From positions 1 to 22,418 of the IMG/VR virus record IMGVR_UViG_3300000325_000026: a DNA stretch of 22,418 bases; one strand, 5' to 3'. Below are positions 1,941-18,826 of this stretch, piece by piece (position 1 is the first letter of the stretch; every line of letters starts with the position of its first letter). Origin of the DNA: a virus. The position numbers and the translations under genes are program-made. The notes under the pieces were generated by a model. That model made no database searches and was not told the DNA's origin. It saw nothing but the letters and a program-made list of their open reading frames with translations.

Positions 1941-2590
1941 TGATTACTATTAAGCATAAATTTTTAGCTAGCGTTGTTATTGAAGGGCAAATTTTGCCAA
2001 ATAGTTGGGATATGAATCTTAATTTAATTCCCAACGAGTCTATACATAATCATCATGATATTGCAATTGCTACTGATAGAGTAAACGTGTGGATTGAAAG
2101 CATGCTTGACAACAGTATGCTTGTAGGGCCACAGGATATGTTAACACTTAAAGAAATGTCCATGCATCCTTTTGCTATTGGTGTTCATCCACTGCCTGAC
2201 GAGCCGTATGATAGGATATTATCAATTTGCTTATACACTAAAATTAGTAGTATAATGGAGAATAAGATGTTTGTAGATAGCATCTGGCTTGAGAGTTACC
2301 AGAGTGAAGGAATTAGTCACACATATTGCTCTGATGACGGTGATACAGCATTGTTAAAAAATCTAGCAGTGCCAGGACAAGAAGAATTTGCTGAGTATTG
2401 GTACAGGAAAGATCCAGTGTTCTTCAGAGTAGACAATGAAGGTGTTACTCTTACTGAGCAAAGTTGGAAAGACCTTGGATTATCATTTGATGCTGCTAAT
2501 ACGTCGGATGGAAAGGTAGTGCCAATTACAAAAAGTAAATTTAAGCCAAGAATTATCCCTGGCGATAAAGGAGATGACAGCATTGCTTGA
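1940..2590 (+). CDS. Hypothetical protein (216 residues)
   Basis: A 216-residue soluble protein in the mazG gene string, coupled to the previous gene through TAATG. It is acidic and has many aromatic residues, with a mixed alpha/beta pattern, for example FLASVVIEGQILPNSWDMNL near the start. The basic C-terminus (about residues 193-216) looks disordered. I see no catalytic motif, signal peptide or membrane segment. The 3' end overlaps the next gene by 17 bases. Function unknown; its place between mazG and a polymerase-like fragment does not settle its role. Confidence 0.75.
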   Translation: MITIKHKFLASVVIEGQILPNSWDMNLNLIPNESIHNHHDIAIATDRVNVWIESMLDNSMLVGPQDMLTLKEMSMHPFAIGVHPLPDEPYDRILSICLYTKISSIMENKMFVDSIWLESYQSEGISHTYCSDDGDTALLKNLAVPGQEEFAEYWYRKDPVFFRVDNEGVTLTEQSWKDLGLSFDAANTSDGKVVPITKSKFKPRIIPGDKGDDSIA

Positions 2591-3095
2591 ATATGATTTA
2601 TACGGCAGACAAATTTACTCGCATGATGATGCAGTAAATGCCTTGTATATTAATCCAAATCTCGACCTAAGAAGTTTAGATATTAGAGATGTAGAACAAT
2701 TTAATCGTGCTAGTGCGTTACTATACACTGGAACAAAATTGGAAAGCGCAGAAACACCAGAATGCACACCTGAAGAGTATCACAAGATGAATCAGCAAAA
2801 TTGGCATATGCCGGTTGAGTATAAAGATATAGACATAGCAAAGTGGTGTTTAGACAGATGTGAAAGTGATGAACAAAGACAACGTGTAGGAACAGAGTTA
2901 CTTATGTATCAGGAACGAGATCTATTTTCTCTACTACAGTTCCTATGTTACATGGTTGATAAAATGAGGGAACATAATATTGTATGGGGTGTAGGTAGAG
3001 GATCAAGTGTAGCAAGTTATGTGCTATACTTAATCGGCGTACACAAGATTGATAGTTTATATTATGATCTTGACGTAGCAGAATTTTTACGATAA
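2574..3095 (+). CDS. Orphan fragment resembling bacterial DNA polymerase III alpha subunit (DnaE-type)
   Basis: A 173-residue protein. Its C-terminal third (about residues 106-173) closely follows the DnaE segment around the conserved glycine-rich motif: ELLMYQERDLFSLLQFL, then NIVWGVGRGSSVASYVLYL (residues 135-153), then YYDLDVAEFLR at the end. In bacterial DnaE the matching text reads GPGRGSAAGSLVAY...FERFLNPER. The protein stops just before the place where DnaE carries its catalytic aspartates, so it should not polymerise alone. The N-terminal 100 residues are not recognised. T4-like phages replicate with a family B polymerase, so a family C fragment is unexpected. A nucleotide or 3'-end binding role, or interference with the host enzyme, is speculation. 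Confidence 0.75.
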   Translation: MTALLEYDLYGRQIYSHDDAVNALYINPNLDLRSLDIRDVEQFNRASALLYTGTKLESAETPECTPEEYHKMNQQNWHMPVEYKDIDIAKWCLDRCESDEQRQRVGTELLMYQERDLFSLLQFLCYMVDKMREHNIVWGVGRGSSVASYVLYLIGVHKIDSLYYDLDVAEFLR

Positions 3096-4153: not shown

Positions 4154-4870
4154 ATGATTGAGGCAAAAGAATTCAATACTAGAACCGGCAATCTTATTAT
4201 TCATTCGGAAGATAATATTATTGGACGAAGTATAGAAAACTATGGTGAGTATTGCTGGCCTGAAATAGAACTTATTAAAAGTCATATTGAACCCAATGAT
4301 TTTATGATTGATGTTGGTGCAGGAGTTGGTACTCACAGTGTAGCACTCGGCCCACATTGTGGGAAAATTTTAGCAATTGAAGCAGATAACGAGAATTACG
4401 ATCTACTTGTAAAAAATTTAGCCATTAATATGTGTAAAAATGTTACACCTAATCACATGGCACTGGGTTCAGAGTTTAAAAAGGTAGGCACTAACTTTAA
4501 TTATTCCAAGACAATGATTACTGATAATGGTGATGTTATTATGACTGCTTTGGATAATATCCAAGGATTTCCAGCAGTTAATCTTATCAAAGTAAGTGTA
4601 AACGGCATGGAACTTCCTATACTAATGGGAGCAAAGAACACCATGTCTTACTTTAAATGTCAGGTGGTTGTAGACGTTAGCGATAAAGCAAGCAAACCAT
4701 TTATAATTGACTATCTACGTGGACTCAGCTATAATGTATATGAGTTTAAATGTCCATTGTTTACAACAGCAAACCATAAAAGAAACTCCAAGAATTTATT
4801 CGGCAATGCTGCAAAAGATATTATTTTTGCAACATTTACAGAACCCAACTCCAGACTAACACAGGTATAA
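4154..4870 (+). CDS. FkbM-family SAM-dependent methyltransferase
   Basis: A 238-residue Rossmann-type methyltransferase. The SAM-binding motif I is MIDVGAGVGTHSVALG (about 51-66), followed by the acidic residue in ILAIEADNENYDLLVKNL (motif II, about 72-89). The later LIKVSVNGMELPILMGAK matches the FkbM motif where I/V-K-x-D/N-x-x-G-x-E-x-x-x-L is conserved. FkbM enzymes usually methylate hydroxyl groups on sugars or small molecules. The substrate is unknown; glycans of host or virion are possible. It is followed two bases later by the duplicated gp44 start, so the insertion point of the homing endonuclease lies just after this gene. Confidence 0.8.
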   Translation: MIEAKEFNTRTGNLIIHSEDNIIGRSIENYGEYCWPEIELIKSHIEPNDFMIDVGAGVGTHSVALGPHCGKILAIEADNENYDLLVKNLAINMCKNVTPNHMALGSEFKKVGTNFNYSKTMITDNGDVIMTALDNIQGFPAVNLIKVSVNGMELPILMGAKNTMSYFKCQVVVDVSDKASKPFIIDYLRGLSYNVYEFKCPLFTTANHKRNSKNLFGNAAKDIIFATFTEPNSRLTQV

Positions 4871-4872
4871 TA

Positions 4873-4899
4873 ATGAAAGAATTATGGACTGAAAAATAG
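4873..4899 (+). pseudogene. Duplicated 5' stub of the gp44 clamp-loader gene
   Basis: ATG followed by codons for MKELWTEK and a TAG. The intact gp44 at 5603 begins MKALWTELYRP, so six of the first seven residues match, while 16 of 21 bases are identical, most differences being silent or at third positions. It sits exactly where gp44 would start if the 5' neighbour (methyltransferase) were directly followed by it. The best explanation is that the homing endonuclease inserted at the gp44 start, with a recoded gp44 start restored downstream. It could still be expressed as an 8-residue peptide. Confidence 0.65.
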
Positions 4900-4907
4900 T
4901 TTCTATG

Positions 4908-4915
4908 CATAAATA
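4908..4915 (+). promoter_or_regulatory. Putative late promoter of the homing endonuclease
   Basis: CATAAATA is one base from the T4 late core. By T4 spacing, transcription would start near 4921, inside the 5' arm of the hairpin at 4917-4937. Late transcripts would therefore lack half of that arm. Confidence 0.5.
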
Positions 4916-4916
4916 T

Positions 4917-4937
4917 AGTTGTAAGGAGATTACAACT
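4917..4937 (+). promoter_or_regulatory. Hairpin with the ribosome-binding site in its loop
   Basis: AGTTGTAA (4917-4924) pairs perfectly with TTACAACT (4930-4937) over a five-base loop GGAGA that is the Shine-Dalgarno. The stem ends directly at the ATG at 4938. In long read-through RNA it would hold the ribosome site in a tight loop. RNA starting at the late promoter would keep only four of the eight pairs. This is the logic known for T4 homing endonucleases such as I-TevI. Confidence 0.6.
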
Positions 4938-5606
4938 ATGCCATATAATAAACCATTTGCTGAAGAAATAATAACAGAAGAACTTTGTGATTATGGATGC
5001 GGTCAAACTGCAAACTACATTTTTAGAAAAGGAAAACTTTGTTGTTCTAATCACCATAATAGTTGCCCAGCAAAACGCAAAGCATTTAGCGATTTAGACC
5101 ACAGTGAAAGAACAACAAAAAGTCTAGAAACTAGAACTAGGCTAGGTATAACAAAAACTTCACAAATAAAAGCAGCAATCACCCGCAAAGAAAATGGACA
5201 CTATGACAAACTTGCTGATACAATGCGTAAACATTGGGAAGAGCATCCTTGGAACAATATGCCAAAATGGGGAGTATATAAGGACACAGAAATCAAGTAT
5301 CAGAGTAAGCCAGAATATAACTTTCTGCAAGAACTTGAAGATGAGCACGACTTAACCTGGGTTAGAGAAAATGTTAAAAGAGGCCCATGTTTTTATTATA
5401 ACGATCCTACAAGCGGGAAAGAAAGATTGTATATAAGCGATTTCCAGATTGAAAATACTATATTTGAAGTTAAAGGAAACTATACTTGGAATAAACACGG
5501 TAAAGACAAAGGTTTGGAAGAAACAAATAAAGCAAAACTTGACAAAGTTAAAGAATCAAACTATAATGCTATATTAGTATTAGAAGGAAAAAGGTTAAAA
5601 ATATGA
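4938..5606 (+). CDS. Homing endonuclease, PD-(D/E)XK type with N-terminal Cys cluster
   Basis: A 222-residue protein. An upstream in-frame ATG at 4905 exists, but 4938 has the GGAG site and hairpin. Residues 17-43 hold CDYGC (C17, C21), CC (35-36), HH (39-40) and C43, a likely zinc-binding module. The middle is basic with TRTRLGITKTSQIKAAITRK, compatible with DNA-binding repeats of freestanding homing endonucleases. The catalytic core reads SKPEYNF (Glu126), YISDFQ (Asp168) and FEVKG (Glu177-x-Lys179), the E...D...ExK layout of the PD-(D/E)XK fold (very-short-patch-repair-like). It overlaps gp44 by ATGA. Such enzymes cut a target site in phages lacking the insert, spreading their own gene. 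The likely target is the gp44 start. Exact family unproven. Confidence 0.8.
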   Translation: MPYNKPFAEEIITEELCDYGCGQTANYIFRKGKLCCSNHHNSCPAKRKAFSDLDHSERTTKSLETRTRLGITKTSQIKAAITRKENGHYDKLADTMRKHWEEHPWNNMPKWGVYKDTEIKYQSKPEYNFLQELEDEHDLTWVRENVKRGPCFYYNDPTSGKERLYISDFQIENTIFEVKGNYTWNKHGKDKGLEETNKAKLDKVKESNYNAILVLEGKRLKI

Positions 5607-6523
5607 AAGCACTCTGGACAGAGTTGTATAGACCTAGCACATTAACAGACTATGTGTTCCGCGATGATGCACAGCGTAAACAAGTACAAGGATGGGTAGA
5701 CAGCGGAATGATTCCGCACTTACTTTTTAGTGGTGCTCCTGGTGTGGGTAAAACTACACTAGCAAAAATATTAGTCAACCTACTAAACATTAATGAATAT
5801 GATGTGTTAGAGATCAATGCTAGTCGTGAGAACAGTGTTGATGCAGTTAGGGAGAAAATTACTAACTTTGTGGCAACGATGCCCTTTGGTGAATTTAAAG
5901 TAGTACTACTTGATGAGGCTGATTACATTAGTCCCAACGGGCAAGCGGCATTACGTGGTGTTATGGAAACATATGCAAGTACCGCACGTTTTATCCTAAC
6001 ATGTAACTATCCCAATAAAGTTATTCCAGCATTGCATAGTAGATGCCAGGGCTTCCACATTGAGAAAATTGACACCACAGAATTTACTGCAAGGGTAGCA
6101 ACAGTATGTGTTACAGAAGGTGTTAACGTTGATATTGACACACTGGATAGTTATGTAAAAGCAACGTATCCTGATCTGCGTAAATGCATTAATTTAGTGC
6201 AAATGAACACAGTTGACGGCCAACTAGTAAAGCCACAGGAATCAGATAGTGCAACAGCAGACTATAGACTTGCTGTAGTAGACTTGTTTAAAGAAGGAAA
6301 GATACTGGATGCACGTAAACTATTATGCACCCAGGTACGTGCGGATGAGATGGACGAGTTGTTTCGTTGGATGTATGATAACTTAGAGCTGTGGAGTACT
6401 ACACAAGAAGGACAGGATCAAGCAGTGCTAATTATTGCCAAAGGATTACGCAACATTCCCATGGTAGCAGATCAAGAAATCAATTTATCGGCGACATTGG
6501 TAGAATTATGTCAAATAGGATAG
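5603..6523 (+). CDS. 44: Sliding-clamp loader large subunit, T4 gp44-like AAA+ ATPase
   Basis: A 306-residue AAA+ ATPase that loads the sliding clamp on primed DNA for the phage replisome. MKALWTELYRPSTLTDYV is the usual N-terminal signature. Walker A GAPGVGKT is at 44-51, Walker B VVLLDEAD at 100-107, the sensor-1 region ILTCNYPNKV at 131-140 and the arginine-finger SRCQGF at 146-151. Length matches T4 gp44 (319). It shares ATGA with the homing endonuclease, with AAGGAAAAAGG as ribosome site. In T4 the small subunit gene 62 comes next; here an SGNH-like gene overlaps the 3' end instead. Its start is duplicated upstream at 4873. Confidence 0.95.
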   Translation: MKALWTELYRPSTLTDYVFRDDAQRKQVQGWVDSGMIPHLLFSGAPGVGKTTLAKILVNLLNINEYDVLEINASRENSVDAVREKITNFVATMPFGEFKVVLLDEADYISPNGQAALRGVMETYASTARFILTCNYPNKVIPALHSRCQGFHIEKIDTTEFTARVATVCVTEGVNVDIDTLDSYVKATYPDLRKCINLVQMNTVDGQLVKPQESDSATADYRLAVVDLFKEGKILDARKLLCTQVRADEMDELFRWMYDNLELWSTTQEGQDQAVLIIAKGLRNIPMVADQEINLSATLVELCQIG

Positions 6524-7326
6524 TTGTTTGTAGTAATCCTGAAGATGACGATTATGTTGGCGAAGAATATAATGCAGACTATTGTAATATTTGCGAATAT
6601 GACTGGCAGGAACTAAAACAAAAAATACAAAAATACCCTGAGGTTATTTTAAAACACAATGGCAAAAATAAAGATGGTCTTTTCGACCTTATAACTTTCG
6701 CTAACTTAATGGGTTTACCTGCCCCTAGCGCACAGAACAGCTTTCACGTAAACACAAATAAAGATCGTAAATTAAATTCAGATGAAGTTTTATATTTAGG
6801 TTGTAGTCACACAGCAGGTTCTGGACATAGTAGCCAGGAGACAATGTATACTCATATTCTTTCTAACATGTTAAACAAAAGTGCTAATGTAGATCATCAT
6901 GCTGGAAAAGGAAACTGGCTTACAGAAGAAAAACTACAAACCTACAATCTAAAAAATGCAACAGTAATTATACAATTTACAGATATTTTTAGATTAAGAC
7001 TAAACGGATATGATATTCCTGGATATCAGTATAGTAAAAACCAAAGTGCAGTGTTTTCTGATAAAGTTCTTGCAAGTATATTTTTAGAACAAGTTAAAAG
7101 AATAGTTAACTTGTTAAGATCTAACAGTGCTAAATTTTGTTTTTTTCATCTGTCACACAACTATCCACAAGAGCGGGAAACTAACAGTATACTTACCACC
7201 TATAAAGAATTTGTATATATTCCAGACTTTAACTTAGATACTGCTGATCAAGGACATCATATGGGAGTAATATCTCATACTCACTGGGCAAAACTTATTT
7301 ACAATAAATTTAATGAGCTATACTAG
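6508..7326 (+). CDS. SGNH/GDSL-like hydrolase-type protein (copy 1)
   Basis: A 272-residue protein. The ATG at 6508, overlapping gp44 by 16 bases, is preferred over a further upstream frame start inside gp44. Residues about 94-104 read VLYLGCSHTAG, a strand followed by a G-x-S block with Ser100 as the candidate nucleophile. DHHAGKGNW follows about 30 residues later (Gly/Asn block), and near the C-terminus SHTHWAKLIYNKF has histidines in the position of the catalytic D-x-x-H block. This matches the SGNH architecture of esterases and deacetylases acting on glycans or lipids, though activity is not shown. A second protein of this type is encoded at 12738-13514. The first 90 residues are not recognised. 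Confidence 0.65.
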   Translation: MSNRIVVCSNPEDDDYVGEEYNADYCNICEYDWQELKQKIQKYPEVILKHNGKNKDGLFDLITFANLMGLPAPSAQNSFHVNTNKDRKLNSDEVLYLGCSHTAGSGHSSQETMYTHILSNMLNKSANVDHHAGKGNWLTEEKLQTYNLKNATVIIQFTDIFRLRLNGYDIPGYQYSKNQSAVFSDKVLASIFLEQVKRIVNLLRSNSAKFCFFHLSHNYPQERETNSILTTYKEFVYIPDFNLDTADQGHHMGVISHTHWAKLIYNKFNELY

Positions 7327-7403
7327 GGTAGAACTATGTCAGATATAATATGAAGGTGTTATTTAACGACGGAAGCATTTTATCAGACAACTAGACGATT
7401 TTT

Positions 7404-7979
7404 TTAAGCCATATATCTAGTCATAATGCTTAGGCGTTTTTTATTTGCTACCTCATCACAACTGTGCCAACTGTAGGCATCATTCCTTATAATCCAACTG
7501 CGATTGATACGGAAATCTATGCTTTTTTTAAACTCTCCTTGAGGAGTATTTAAGTTTGTACCAGTACCACCATATATGTATAACTGCCAAGCAACAGCAA
7601 TAGCCACACTGTCAACATGGTTACCAACTGCATATCCATGTTCGTCCATGTACAAATGATCCATGGTTTTGCGTTTTCTATAGGGAACATCCAATAATGT
7701 GTATACAGCCTGTTGAATGTCTTCGTGATCCATTATATAACGGTAGTAGTCTTGCCAAAATTCTGTGCTAGAGTGTAATTGATACACTACGCGGTGTTGA
7801 CTGAGTTTTGGTGTGTTTTTTAGCCAATTTTCCTCGGGCCAGTTACCCATGCACTGTTCGTATAACTCAGGGTGTAGAGTATCATCAATAACTACATGCC
7901 AGTAGGGTTCCCAGCAAACCTGTGCATTTTTTATCTGATTTATGGTGAAATTCTGGTATTCTTGCCAGTTTATTGTCAT
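7404..7979 (-). CDS. 2OG-Fe(II) oxygenase-like protein
   Basis: A 191-residue protein on the minus strand. The double-stranded beta-helix iron site is visible as GNHVDS (His121, Asp123) and SWHSCDEV (His172), with KKRLSIMTRY following (Arg182 as the candidate 2-oxoglutarate binder). WQLYIYGGTGTNLNTPQG between them fits the core strands. Family members hydroxylate proteins, nucleic acids or small molecules using 2-oxoglutarate and O2, and are common in marine T4-like phages. The substrate is unknown. Its ribosome site is weak. It is convergent with the SGNH gene and divergent from the early block at 8063. Confidence 0.75.
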   Translation of the reverse strand: MTINWQEYQNFTINQIKNAQVCWEPYWHVVIDDTLHPELYEQCMGNWPEENWLKNTPKLSQHRVVYQLHSSTEFWQDYYRYIMDHEDIQQAVYTLLDVPYRKRKTMDHLYMDEHGYAVGNHVDSVAIAVAWQLYIYGGTGTNLNTPQGEFKKSIDFRINRSWIIRNDAYSWHSCDEVANKKRLSIMTRYMA

Positions 7980-17269: not shown

Positions 17270-17285
17270 AATGAAAGGATACATT

Positions 17286-17624
17286 ATGAAACTAGTAACA
17301 GCAATCATCAAGCCCTTCAAGCTGGATGAGGCTAAGGAAGCTCTGGAAGGTATAAACATCTATGGGCTTACAGCTTCTGAAGCAAAAGGGTATGGTAGAC
17401 AAAAAGGTCACACGGAATTATACCGTGGGGCAGAATACACAATAGATTTCCTCCCAAAAATTAGGTTAGAAATGGCAGTAGCTGACAATCAAGTAGAGTT
17501 AGTGATCGAGTGTCTATCCGCAGTTTTGAAAACAGGAAAAATAGGCGATGGTAAAATTTGGACAACACCAATTGATACCATGGTAAGAGTAAGAACAGGA
17601 GAAACTGGGGAGAACGCATTATGA
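17286..17624 (+). CDS. glnK: PII nitrogen-regulatory signalling protein (GlnK/GlnB)
   Basis: From this ATG the protein has 112 residues, the same as E. coli GlnB and GlnK, and begins MKLVTAIIKPFKLDEAKEAL. AAAGGA lies six bases upstream. The ATG at 17271, after a hairpin-loop AGGAG, would add five residues and is an alternative. The T-loop reads YGRQKGHTELYRGAEY with Tyr51 in the uridylylation position, and the B-loop is TGKIGDGK (83-90). TTPIDTMVRVRTGETGENAL completes the family. PII senses 2-oxoglutarate, ATP and ADP; GlnK-type proteins plug AmtB. Every key residue is kept, so it should be functional. It overlaps amtB by ATGA, the usual bacterial glnK-amtB order. Confidence 0.95.
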   Translation: MKLVTAIIKPFKLDEAKEALEGINIYGLTASEAKGYGRQKGHTELYRGAEYTIDFLPKIRLEMAVADNQVELVIECLSAVLKTGKIGDGKIWTTPIDTMVRVRTGETGENAL

Positions 17625-18826
17625 GTGAATTACATTATGCCCTAGATACATTTTATTTCTTACTCAGTGGCGTGTTAGTCATGTGGATGGCAGCAGGCTT
17701 TACTATGCTAGAAGCTGGCATGGTACGTACAAAAAACGCAAGTGAAATTGTAATGAAGAACTTTGCTTTATATGGAGTAGCATGTATTATGTTCCTCTTT
17801 ATAGGGTATAACATTATGTATGGCACTCCAGGCGATTTGTTTGTGGGTGGTGACCACAAAGCAGCAACAGCAGATAACTATTATTCAAAATTAAGTGACT
17901 TTTTCTTCCAACTAGTATTTGTTGCAACAGCAATGAGTATTGTAAGTGGAGCAGTTGCAGAACGTATGAAGTTGTGGGCGTTCTTAGTTATTGCAGTAGT
18001 TGTAACAGGAGTTATCTATCCTATCCAAGGAAGCTGGAGTTGGGGTGGAGGCTGGCTTAGCGATTTTGGATTTAGCGACTTCGCTGGTTCAGGTATTGTG
18101 CATATGTTTGGTGGAGCCACTGCATTAGCAGTTGTTTTACAATTGGGTCCACGCAAAGGCAAGTATAGCAAAGACGGAAAGCCACAACCTATAATGGGTA
18201 GCAACTTAGTACTAGTAGGATTAGGCACATGGATCCTATGGATGGGTTGGTTTGGTTTTAACGGTGGATCACAGTTAAAATTAAGCACACTTGCTGATGC
18301 AAATGCAGTAGCGCAAATATTTGTTAACACAAACCTTGCGGCGGCCGGTGGATTACTGGCAACAATGATTGTTGCAAAAGTACTCACGGGCAAAACAGAC
18401 TTAACACTTGCACTCAACGGGGCACTTGCTGGTCTTGTTGCTATTACAGCAGACCCACTCAGTGGTAGTGCTATGGTATCAACTATTATTGGTGCTATAG
18501 GCGGTGTTATCGTTTACTTTAGTATTATTGGTTTAGATAAGTTAAAGATTGATGACGCAGTGGGTGCTATAAGTGTGCATGGTGTTGTAGGCATATGGGG
18601 CGTATTAGCAGTGCCCTTAACAAATGCTGATGCAACAATTCTTGCTCAACTTGCAGGCATTGGTGCTATAGCTGGTTTTACATTTGTAACTACAAGTGTA
18701 TTTGTTTTTATAGTTAAGAAAACAATGGGAATTCGTGTTAGTGTAAAAGAAGAACACGAAGGATCAGATATAGAAGAATTAGGGGTAACAACATATCCAG
18801 AGTTCAAAATGTCGGCTAAATTTTAA
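17621..18826 (+). CDS. amtB: Ammonium transporter AmtB
   Basis: A 401-residue polytopic ammonium channel, expected as a homotrimer with about 11 transmembrane segments per subunit in the host inner membrane. The family signature is intact: MLEAGMVRTKNASEIVMKN (29-47), SWGGGWL before DFAGSGIVHMFGGATAL with Asp153 and the first pore histidine His161, WFGFNGGS (210-217) and AISVHGVVGIWG with the second pore histidine His320. It has no long signal peptide, unlike E. coli AmtB. Overlap with glnK (ATGA) implies coupled translation. A terminator follows eight bases after the stop. It should raise ammonium uptake of the infected cell under PII control. Transfer from a bacterial host is likely; the base composition now looks like that of the phage. 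Confidence 0.96.
   Translation: MSELHYALDTFYFLLSGVLVMWMAAGFTMLEAGMVRTKNASEIVMKNFALYGVACIMFLFIGYNIMYGTPGDLFVGGDHKAATADNYYSKLSDFFFQLVFVATAMSIVSGAVAERMKLWAFLVIAVVVTGVIYPIQGSWSWGGGWLSDFGFSDFAGSGIVHMFGGATALAVVLQLGPRKGKYSKDGKPQPIMGSNLVLVGLGTWILWMGWFGFNGGSQLKLSTLADANAVAQIFVNTNLAAAGGLLATMIVAKVLTGKTDLTLALNGALAGLVAITADPLSGSAMVSTIIGAIGGVIVYFSIIGLDKLKIDDAVGAISVHGVVGIWGVLAVPLTNADATILAQLAGIGAIAGFTFVTTSVFVFIVKKTMGIRVSVKEEHEGSDIEELGVTTYPEFKMSAKF

Follow-up and report, generated by a model that had tools for sequence, protein, structure and literature searches.

A putative homing endonuclease cassette within the start of a phage gp44-like clamp loader gene, carrying a replacement gene start

The gene for a gp44-like sliding-clamp loader is interrupted between its codons 8 and 9 by a unit of 730 bp, which encodes a homing-type nuclease and ends with a second, altered copy of the first eight gp44 codons. 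We consider it highly probable that this unit is a homing endonuclease cassette, which would cut near its insertion site, be copied in by break repair, provide a replacement start for the interrupted gene, and carry both recoding and a regulated leader. The window, i.e., the whole stretch of 22,418 nt that was analyzed, is a piece of a large phage and encodes, in addition to the clamp loader, PhoH, DnaJ, a Clp-like ATPase, a lysozyme, and an ammonium transporter with a P-II protein. By gp44, the nearest isolates are Pseudomonas jumbo phages of the PA5oct kind (54% identity), and many of the metagenomic relatives, designated here by L numbers, are carried on contigs of 100-350 kb. The following features were assigned:

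4154-4870, plus strand: FkbM-type methyltransferase gene (Pfam PF05050, E=1.6e-7)
4873-4899, plus strand: stub, the original gp44 start, MKELWTEK-stop, matching the canonical start of relatives
4898-5627, plus strand: inserted unit of 730 bp with leader, nuclease gene and replacement gp44 codons 1-8, delimited by a deletion test and a 777-nt tract shared by L084 and L085
4909-4915, plus strand: ATAAATA, late-promoter-like core, 11 nt past the junction in the window, L090 and L139
4914-4940, plus strand: predicted RNA hairpin of 11 bp, holding the nuclease Shine-Dalgarno sequence and the ATG at 4938 (fold -10.7 kcal/mol)
4938-5606, plus strand: homing-type endonuclease, 222 aa, with relatives in L083-L085, L090 and L139
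5588-5594, plus strand: AAAAAGG, ribosome-binding-like site for gp44 in the end of the nuclease ORF (AAAAGG in relatives)
5603-5627, plus strand: replacement gp44 start, MKALWTEL, with TTG and not AAA/AAG at codon 8, by comparison with relatives
5603-6523, plus strand: gp44-like sliding-clamp loader, 306 aa (phrog_168 clamp loader, E=1.8e-77; AAA PF00004, E=4.5e-16)

Two further observations concern other parts of the window. At 17271-18826, the ammonium transporter (PF00909, E=5e-101) follows the P-II nitrogen regulator (PF00543, E=4e-27), forming a phage-borne nitrogen-uptake pair. At 2574-3095, just upstream of the GroES region, lies a lone 173-aa fragment corresponding to the NTPase region of DNA polymerase III alpha, which is also present in L085 and L097 and therefore represents a conserved split piece.

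Insertion site and replacement start

The preliminary description of this DNA had reported a duplicated gp44 start with six of seven residues and 16 of 21 bases matching over the first seven codons, and this was reproduced from the sequence. The upstream copy, ATGAAAGAATTATGGACTGAAAAATAG at 4873, reads MKELWTEK followed by a stop codon (4873-4899), and the downstream copy, ATGAAAGCACTCTGGACAGAGTTGTATAGACCT at 5603, reads MKALWTELYRP and opens the full clamp loader. When codon 8 is included (AAA vs. TTG, differing at all three bases), the match amounts to 6/8 residues and 16/24 bases. The K-Y pair at codons 8-9 of MKELWTEKYRP occurred in 44 of 53 distinct nuclease-less gp44 relatives in a first search and in 86 of the 111 nuclease-less gp44 genes of the combined set. 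Therefore, the stub represents an ordinary gp44 start, and its match is not due to chance; over 24 nt it differs from some relatives by at most one base. That the downstream copy is the changed one also held, since most nuclease-less relatives possess the stub-type start: judged by sequence comparison, the stub is the original and the downstream start the altered copy (E3A, K8L).

The bases of the original gp44 within the stub comprise 25 nt (4873-4897), and the insert begins at 4898. Deletion of 4898-5627, which joins these 25 nt to position 5628 onward, yielded MKELWTEKYRPSTLTD with the canonical MKELWTEKYRP, and the first 16 residues of the resulting product are those of L010 and L012. The insertion is located between codons 8 and 9 and thereby within the coding sequence of gp44, not in an intergenic region. 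Methyltransferase homologues were identified upstream of gp44 in L003, L008, L011, L015 and others; in several relatives the methyltransferase gene directly precedes gp44 without a nuclease, with a gap of about 100 nt in L003 and others, so that the insert-free junction that had been predicted for related phages does exist. The same site is polymorphic for presence and absence of the insert when L139 is compared with L103, L090 with L102, and the window with L003 and others. In the near-isogenic pair of filled L139 and empty L103, 39 of 40 bases match up to GAAA(A/C)AT in codon 9, where the insert follows. The inserts measure 730 bp in the window, 731 bp in L139 and 732 bp in L090, and about 730-736 bp across the carriers. 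Relatives possessing the stub but lacking the nuclease, which had been named as evidence against an insertion, were looked for and none was found; a pattern search for the stub followed by TAG matched only this phage.

Distribution and movement of the unit

Six contigs, which represent about five phages and differ in their flanks, show the layout, and in each carrier a gp44 stub lies 5' and a gp44 start immediately 3' of the nuclease gene. The arrangement of the window recurs in a second contig, IMGVR_UViG_3300005838_000059, at 99.97% identity, and is therefore no error of a single assembly. Four further phages carry nucleases with 54-80% identity to that of the window, inserted at the same gp44 codon. 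Among the carriers, L083 and L085 represent one phage type and L084 another; their nucleases are 80% identical to that of the window and their stub reads MKELWVEN. The nuclease of L090 is 56% identical to that of the window, and its stub has lost the ATG and kept AATTATGGACTGAAAAAT. L139 was found via a collection of clamp loaders close to L090. L091 is a mirror copy of L090 on the other arm of a palindromic contig (IMGVR_UViG_3300032288_004815, 117,666 bases), in which the same region occurs twice in mirrored orientation, probably as an inverted-duplication assembly artefact.

Over 777 nt, L084 and L085 are identical; this tract opens with the A of the stub ATG and extends to gp44 codon 14. 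Beyond this tract, the upstream sequences are unrelated (20-40% identity per 100 nt) and the downstream gp44 sequences are only 66-78% identical. Identity of this extent between unrelated or diverged flanks strongly indicates a recent transfer. Between the window and L085, identity reached 80% for the nuclease, 66% for gp44, 39% for GroES and 43% for the DnaE-like fragment. In addition, carriers are dispersed among non-carriers in the gp44 tree. No relative of the nuclease was found in the bacterial and archaeal genome contigs scanned, and in the phage isolates scanned only its zinc finger was matched. The insertion at the gp44 start proposed earlier is borne out by the empty-site relatives, the near-isogenic filled/empty pair, four nuclease lineages at one codon, and the mapped horizontal transfer. 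At the level of sequence, the insertion point, the unit boundaries, the horizontal transfer and the replacement start can be regarded as established.

Some further features were observed in the contigs compared. The clamp loader of L084 (1807-4127) contains an intein-like insert after the LLDE of Walker B, with an ORF for a TnsA-like endonuclease (PF08722, E=9.5e-5, below the cut-off); together with the nuclease at the gp44 start, this places two kinds of homing element in one gene. Just 3' of gp44 in L085, an ORF at 6670-7464 with zinc-finger-like repeats and a YKVGIT motif resembles, by eye, a GIY-YIG-type homing endonuclease. In the same contig, the stub and the first bases of the insert (4940-4970) form a perfect inverted repeat of 12 bp (TATGGGTAGAGAA/TTCTACCCATA). 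About 1 kb of L139 (4733-5799) is missing at the same place in L103, L104 and L102, and this segment is possibly another mobile insert. The nuclease-less L061 and L099 share 96-100% identity over a stretch of about 200 nt that ends at the gp44 start, with a sharp drop immediately beyond it, which suggests a recombination breakpoint at the same site.

The nuclease, its leader and the recoded start

The N-terminus of the nuclease forms a Cys-rich zinc finger (C17, C21, C35, C36, C43), and in its C-terminal region E126, D168, E177 and K179 (window numbering) are invariant in four sequences, a set of residues characteristic of PD-(D/E)XK enzymes. The order of predicted secondary-structure elements fits the alpha-beta-beta-beta-alpha-beta core of PD-(D/E)XK enzymes. 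As the AlphaFold model, which was built with three sequences, is poor (pLDDT 45), the assignment of the C-terminal domain as PD-(D/E)XK-like is a probable one. The sole library match was sub-threshold, to DUF7487 (PF24308), for which no literature was found. A GIY-YIG or HNH catalytic domain was absent in Pfam, PHROG and NCBIfam searches, and solved structures yielded chance matches only.

Given the insertion site, which implies cutting at the gp44 start, the enzyme would most likely cleave uninterrupted gp44 at or near the conserved WTEKYRP codons. Repair of the break with the donor copy as template would then bring in about 730 bp, with the stub region (plus upstream DNA, if homologous) serving as the left repair arm and gp44 as the right one. 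As the unit brings its own gp44 start, splicing would not be needed, and the cassette would be harmless because its 3' end equips gp44 with a new ribosome site, eight replacement codons and a start codon that shares bases with the nuclease stop (as ATGA). In each of the four lineages, AAAAGG is located 6-9 nt ahead of the new gp44 start, and in L090 and L139 the nuclease ORF extends 28 nt into gp44 in another frame. The old gp44 start would remain upstream as a dead eight-codon stub. The changes at codons 8-9 of the replacement start probably block re-cutting of the carrier. As in the case of I-TevI of T4, the leader probably prevents translation of the nuclease from early read-through transcripts and permits it from those of a late promoter. 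Cleavage at the gp44 start, protection by recoding and this early-off/late-on switch are steps that we infer.

The nuclease had also been described as occupying exactly the gap between the two gp44 starts. The ORF at 4938-5606 does lie there, but the remainder of the gap forms a 40-nt leader with the ATAAATA motif and a hairpin over the ribosome-binding site and start. The best start of the nuclease is at 4938, preceded by the Shine-Dalgarno sequence AAGGAG at 4923-4928. Seven of the eight ATAAATA copies in the window precede a same-strand gene at a distance of no more than 100 nt (naive P 6e-7, a value inflated by AT-rich intergenic sequence), so the motif is plausibly a late promoter of this phage. 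All four lineages possess the leader motif and a hairpin over the nuclease Shine-Dalgarno sequence or start, although the hairpin is weak in L085: the full leader of the window folded with a z-score of -3.2, the 13-bp hairpin of L090 with -7.1, and the ribosome-site hairpin of L085 alone with -1.1. The 5' arm of the hairpin overlaps the promoter motif in four of four lineages, and truncated transcripts unfolded in the folding computation. A late transcript is therefore predicted to lack this arm and to expose the nuclease start. By sequence and folding, all four lineages thus appear to have a leader of the T4 type, in which the late promoter is embedded in a hairpin concealing ribosome site and start.

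The stub itself may have been kept for a function and not as a passive trace: it may be an operator next to the promoter, to which the nuclease binds to repress its own gene in the manner of I-TevI, or it may act as the left homology arm during homing. We regard this as a possibility that falls somewhat short of even chances and that is compatible with a homing cassette. It would account for L090, in which the stub has no ATG and yet 18 bases equal those of the window stub, while the nuclease genes are 63% identical with a longest shared run of 14. Likewise, the stub ends exactly 11 nt upstream of ATAAATA in three lineages, and the tract shared by L084 and L085 starts exactly at the stub ATG. 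However, the 18-base match could equally result from a recent refreshing of the stub by gene conversion from canonical gp44.

With regard to the homing cassette, the preliminary description had proposed that the new start is recoded for protection against the enzyme, and the comparisons supported this in part. Codons 8-9 deviate from K-Y in all four carrier lineages, compared to 25 of 111 nuclease-less genes (Fisher P=0.003, a test that ignores kinship); the changes at the junction are TTG, TTG and CGG at codon 8 and TGG at codon 9. In the clade of the window (17 rows of the gp44 tree), the window is the sole carrier, and K-Y is present in all others except L099. In addition, the start has diverged in two other lineages: 12 of 33 bases differ between L090 and empty L102 (5.0 expected, P=0.003) and 8 of 33 between L139 and L103 (3.5 expected, P=0.02), whereas empty pairs of the L090/L139 group showed fewer start differences than expected. 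Between the window start and those of relatives, on the other hand, 6-8 of 33 bases are different, with about 7 (7.3) expected, and its base divergence is ordinary. A pattern search also identified TTG at codon 8 in the nuclease-less L095, L096, L097, L098 and L099, so that this codon loses weight as a feature exclusive to carriers. In L085, stub and new start do not differ in their first 20 bases, and only codons 8-9 could confer protection there. On balance, we consider protection of the new start against the carrier's own enzyme rather likely.

The ordinary divergence of the window start would also be expected if the nuclease were a free-standing endonuclease of the T4 style that cuts elsewhere in gp44 or a neighboring gene, its position having been left by recombination and the altered start being neutral or derived from the gp44 of another donor. 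The seg and mob enzymes of T4 indeed cleave hundreds to thousands of bases away from their own genes (PMC2988022). However, one and the same codon holds the insert in four lineages, the insertion interrupts a coding sequence that is kept intact in nuclease-less relatives, and codons 8-9 are changed in each carrier lineage; a distant cutter is thus unlikely.

Exact removal of 4898-5627 would restore MKELWTEKYRP, as would be expected from a self-splicing intron or an intein rejoining the stub to gp44. A group I or II intron was rejected, as no ribozyme core and no Rfam match at E<=1 were found, and little non-coding sequence is left to accommodate a ribozyme. An intein was rejected as well, as the reading frame is broken by the stop codon after the stub and the inserts of 730-732 bp do not share one frame. 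Moreover, a working second gp44 start at the end of the insert would be pointless if the insert were spliced, which renders splicing very improbable. An assembly error or a chance duplication without a mobile element, for which nothing speaks except the short length of the stub, is negligible, given that the layout recurs between different flanks in about five phages, represented by six contigs.

Relation to known mobile endonuclease genes

According to a review, homing endonucleases are able to invade highly conserved coding sequences by virtue of their association with self-splicing introns or inteins (PMC3943268). The gp44 nuclease appears to occupy a sequence of this kind without being spliced out, by providing an essential replication gene with a substitute start. 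In the open-licence literature searched, no description of a phage endonuclease with a replacement gene start was found. We consider it fairly likely that the gp44 cassette represents a class of phage homing endonucleases that enter conserved coding sequence without splicing and carry an enzyme-immune replacement start overlapping the nuclease ORF, so that the host gene becomes dependent on the parasite. If this is true, ribosome site, start codon and recoded first codons together would form a replacement start that is both immune to the enzyme and overlapping its ORF. Such a start would constitute a further route to neutrality, and the translation start of an essential gene would depend on a selfish element. 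The system also offers a sharp test case for protection by recoding, with one codon at a known junction and natural filled and empty alleles in near-isogenic phages.

The cassette resembles the Seg and Mob endonucleases of T4 and MobE of Aeh1 in being an intron-less phage endonuclease gene beside replication or core genes, and its leader with a late promoter and a hairpin over the ribosome-binding site is similar to those of segB, mobE and I-TevI (PMC2988022). However, the free-standing T4 genes are intergenic, encode GIY-YIG or HNH enzymes and usually cut far from their insertion site (PMC2988022), whereas the unit described here is located inside the gp44 coding sequence and provides a replacement start. 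As in the intron-encoded leaders of the I-TevI type, the late promoter lies in the 5' arm of the hairpin hiding ribosome site and start, with a homing-site-like sequence near the promoter (PMC2988022); here, the leader is located 3' of a gene stub and its regulation is predicted. ShiLan, in which an HNH endonuclease is hidden in a phage methylase, likewise sits in a phage coding sequence without intron or intein, but remains in frame and is translated as a loop that is tolerated (PMC11855218), whereas the gp44 frame is broken and a new start is provided.

Besides the T4 endonucleases, the nearest precedents are found in fungal mitochondria, where mobile ORFs carry duplicated C-termini which are diverged in DNA and conserved in protein, e.g., in atp6, atp9, cox2 and nad3 of Glomus sp., atp6 of Allomyces, and rps3 of Ophiostoma (PMC3630166, PMC4019555). 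In both cases, an endonuclease ORF is situated near a gene end, and the insert holds a duplicated version of that end with diverged DNA and conserved protein. The fungal ORFs concern the C-terminus, i.e., the 3' end, in mitochondria and encode LAGLIDADG or GIY-YIG enzymes, whereas the gp44 unit is carried by a phage, supplies an N-terminus together with start codon and ribosome site, and encodes a probable PD-(D/E)XK enzyme. Being at the 5' end and in a phage, the gp44 cassette would therefore work like the fungal mitochondrial ORFs without being a member of them, and we rate it as the N-terminal counterpart, in phages, of the fungal ORFs with replacement C-termini.
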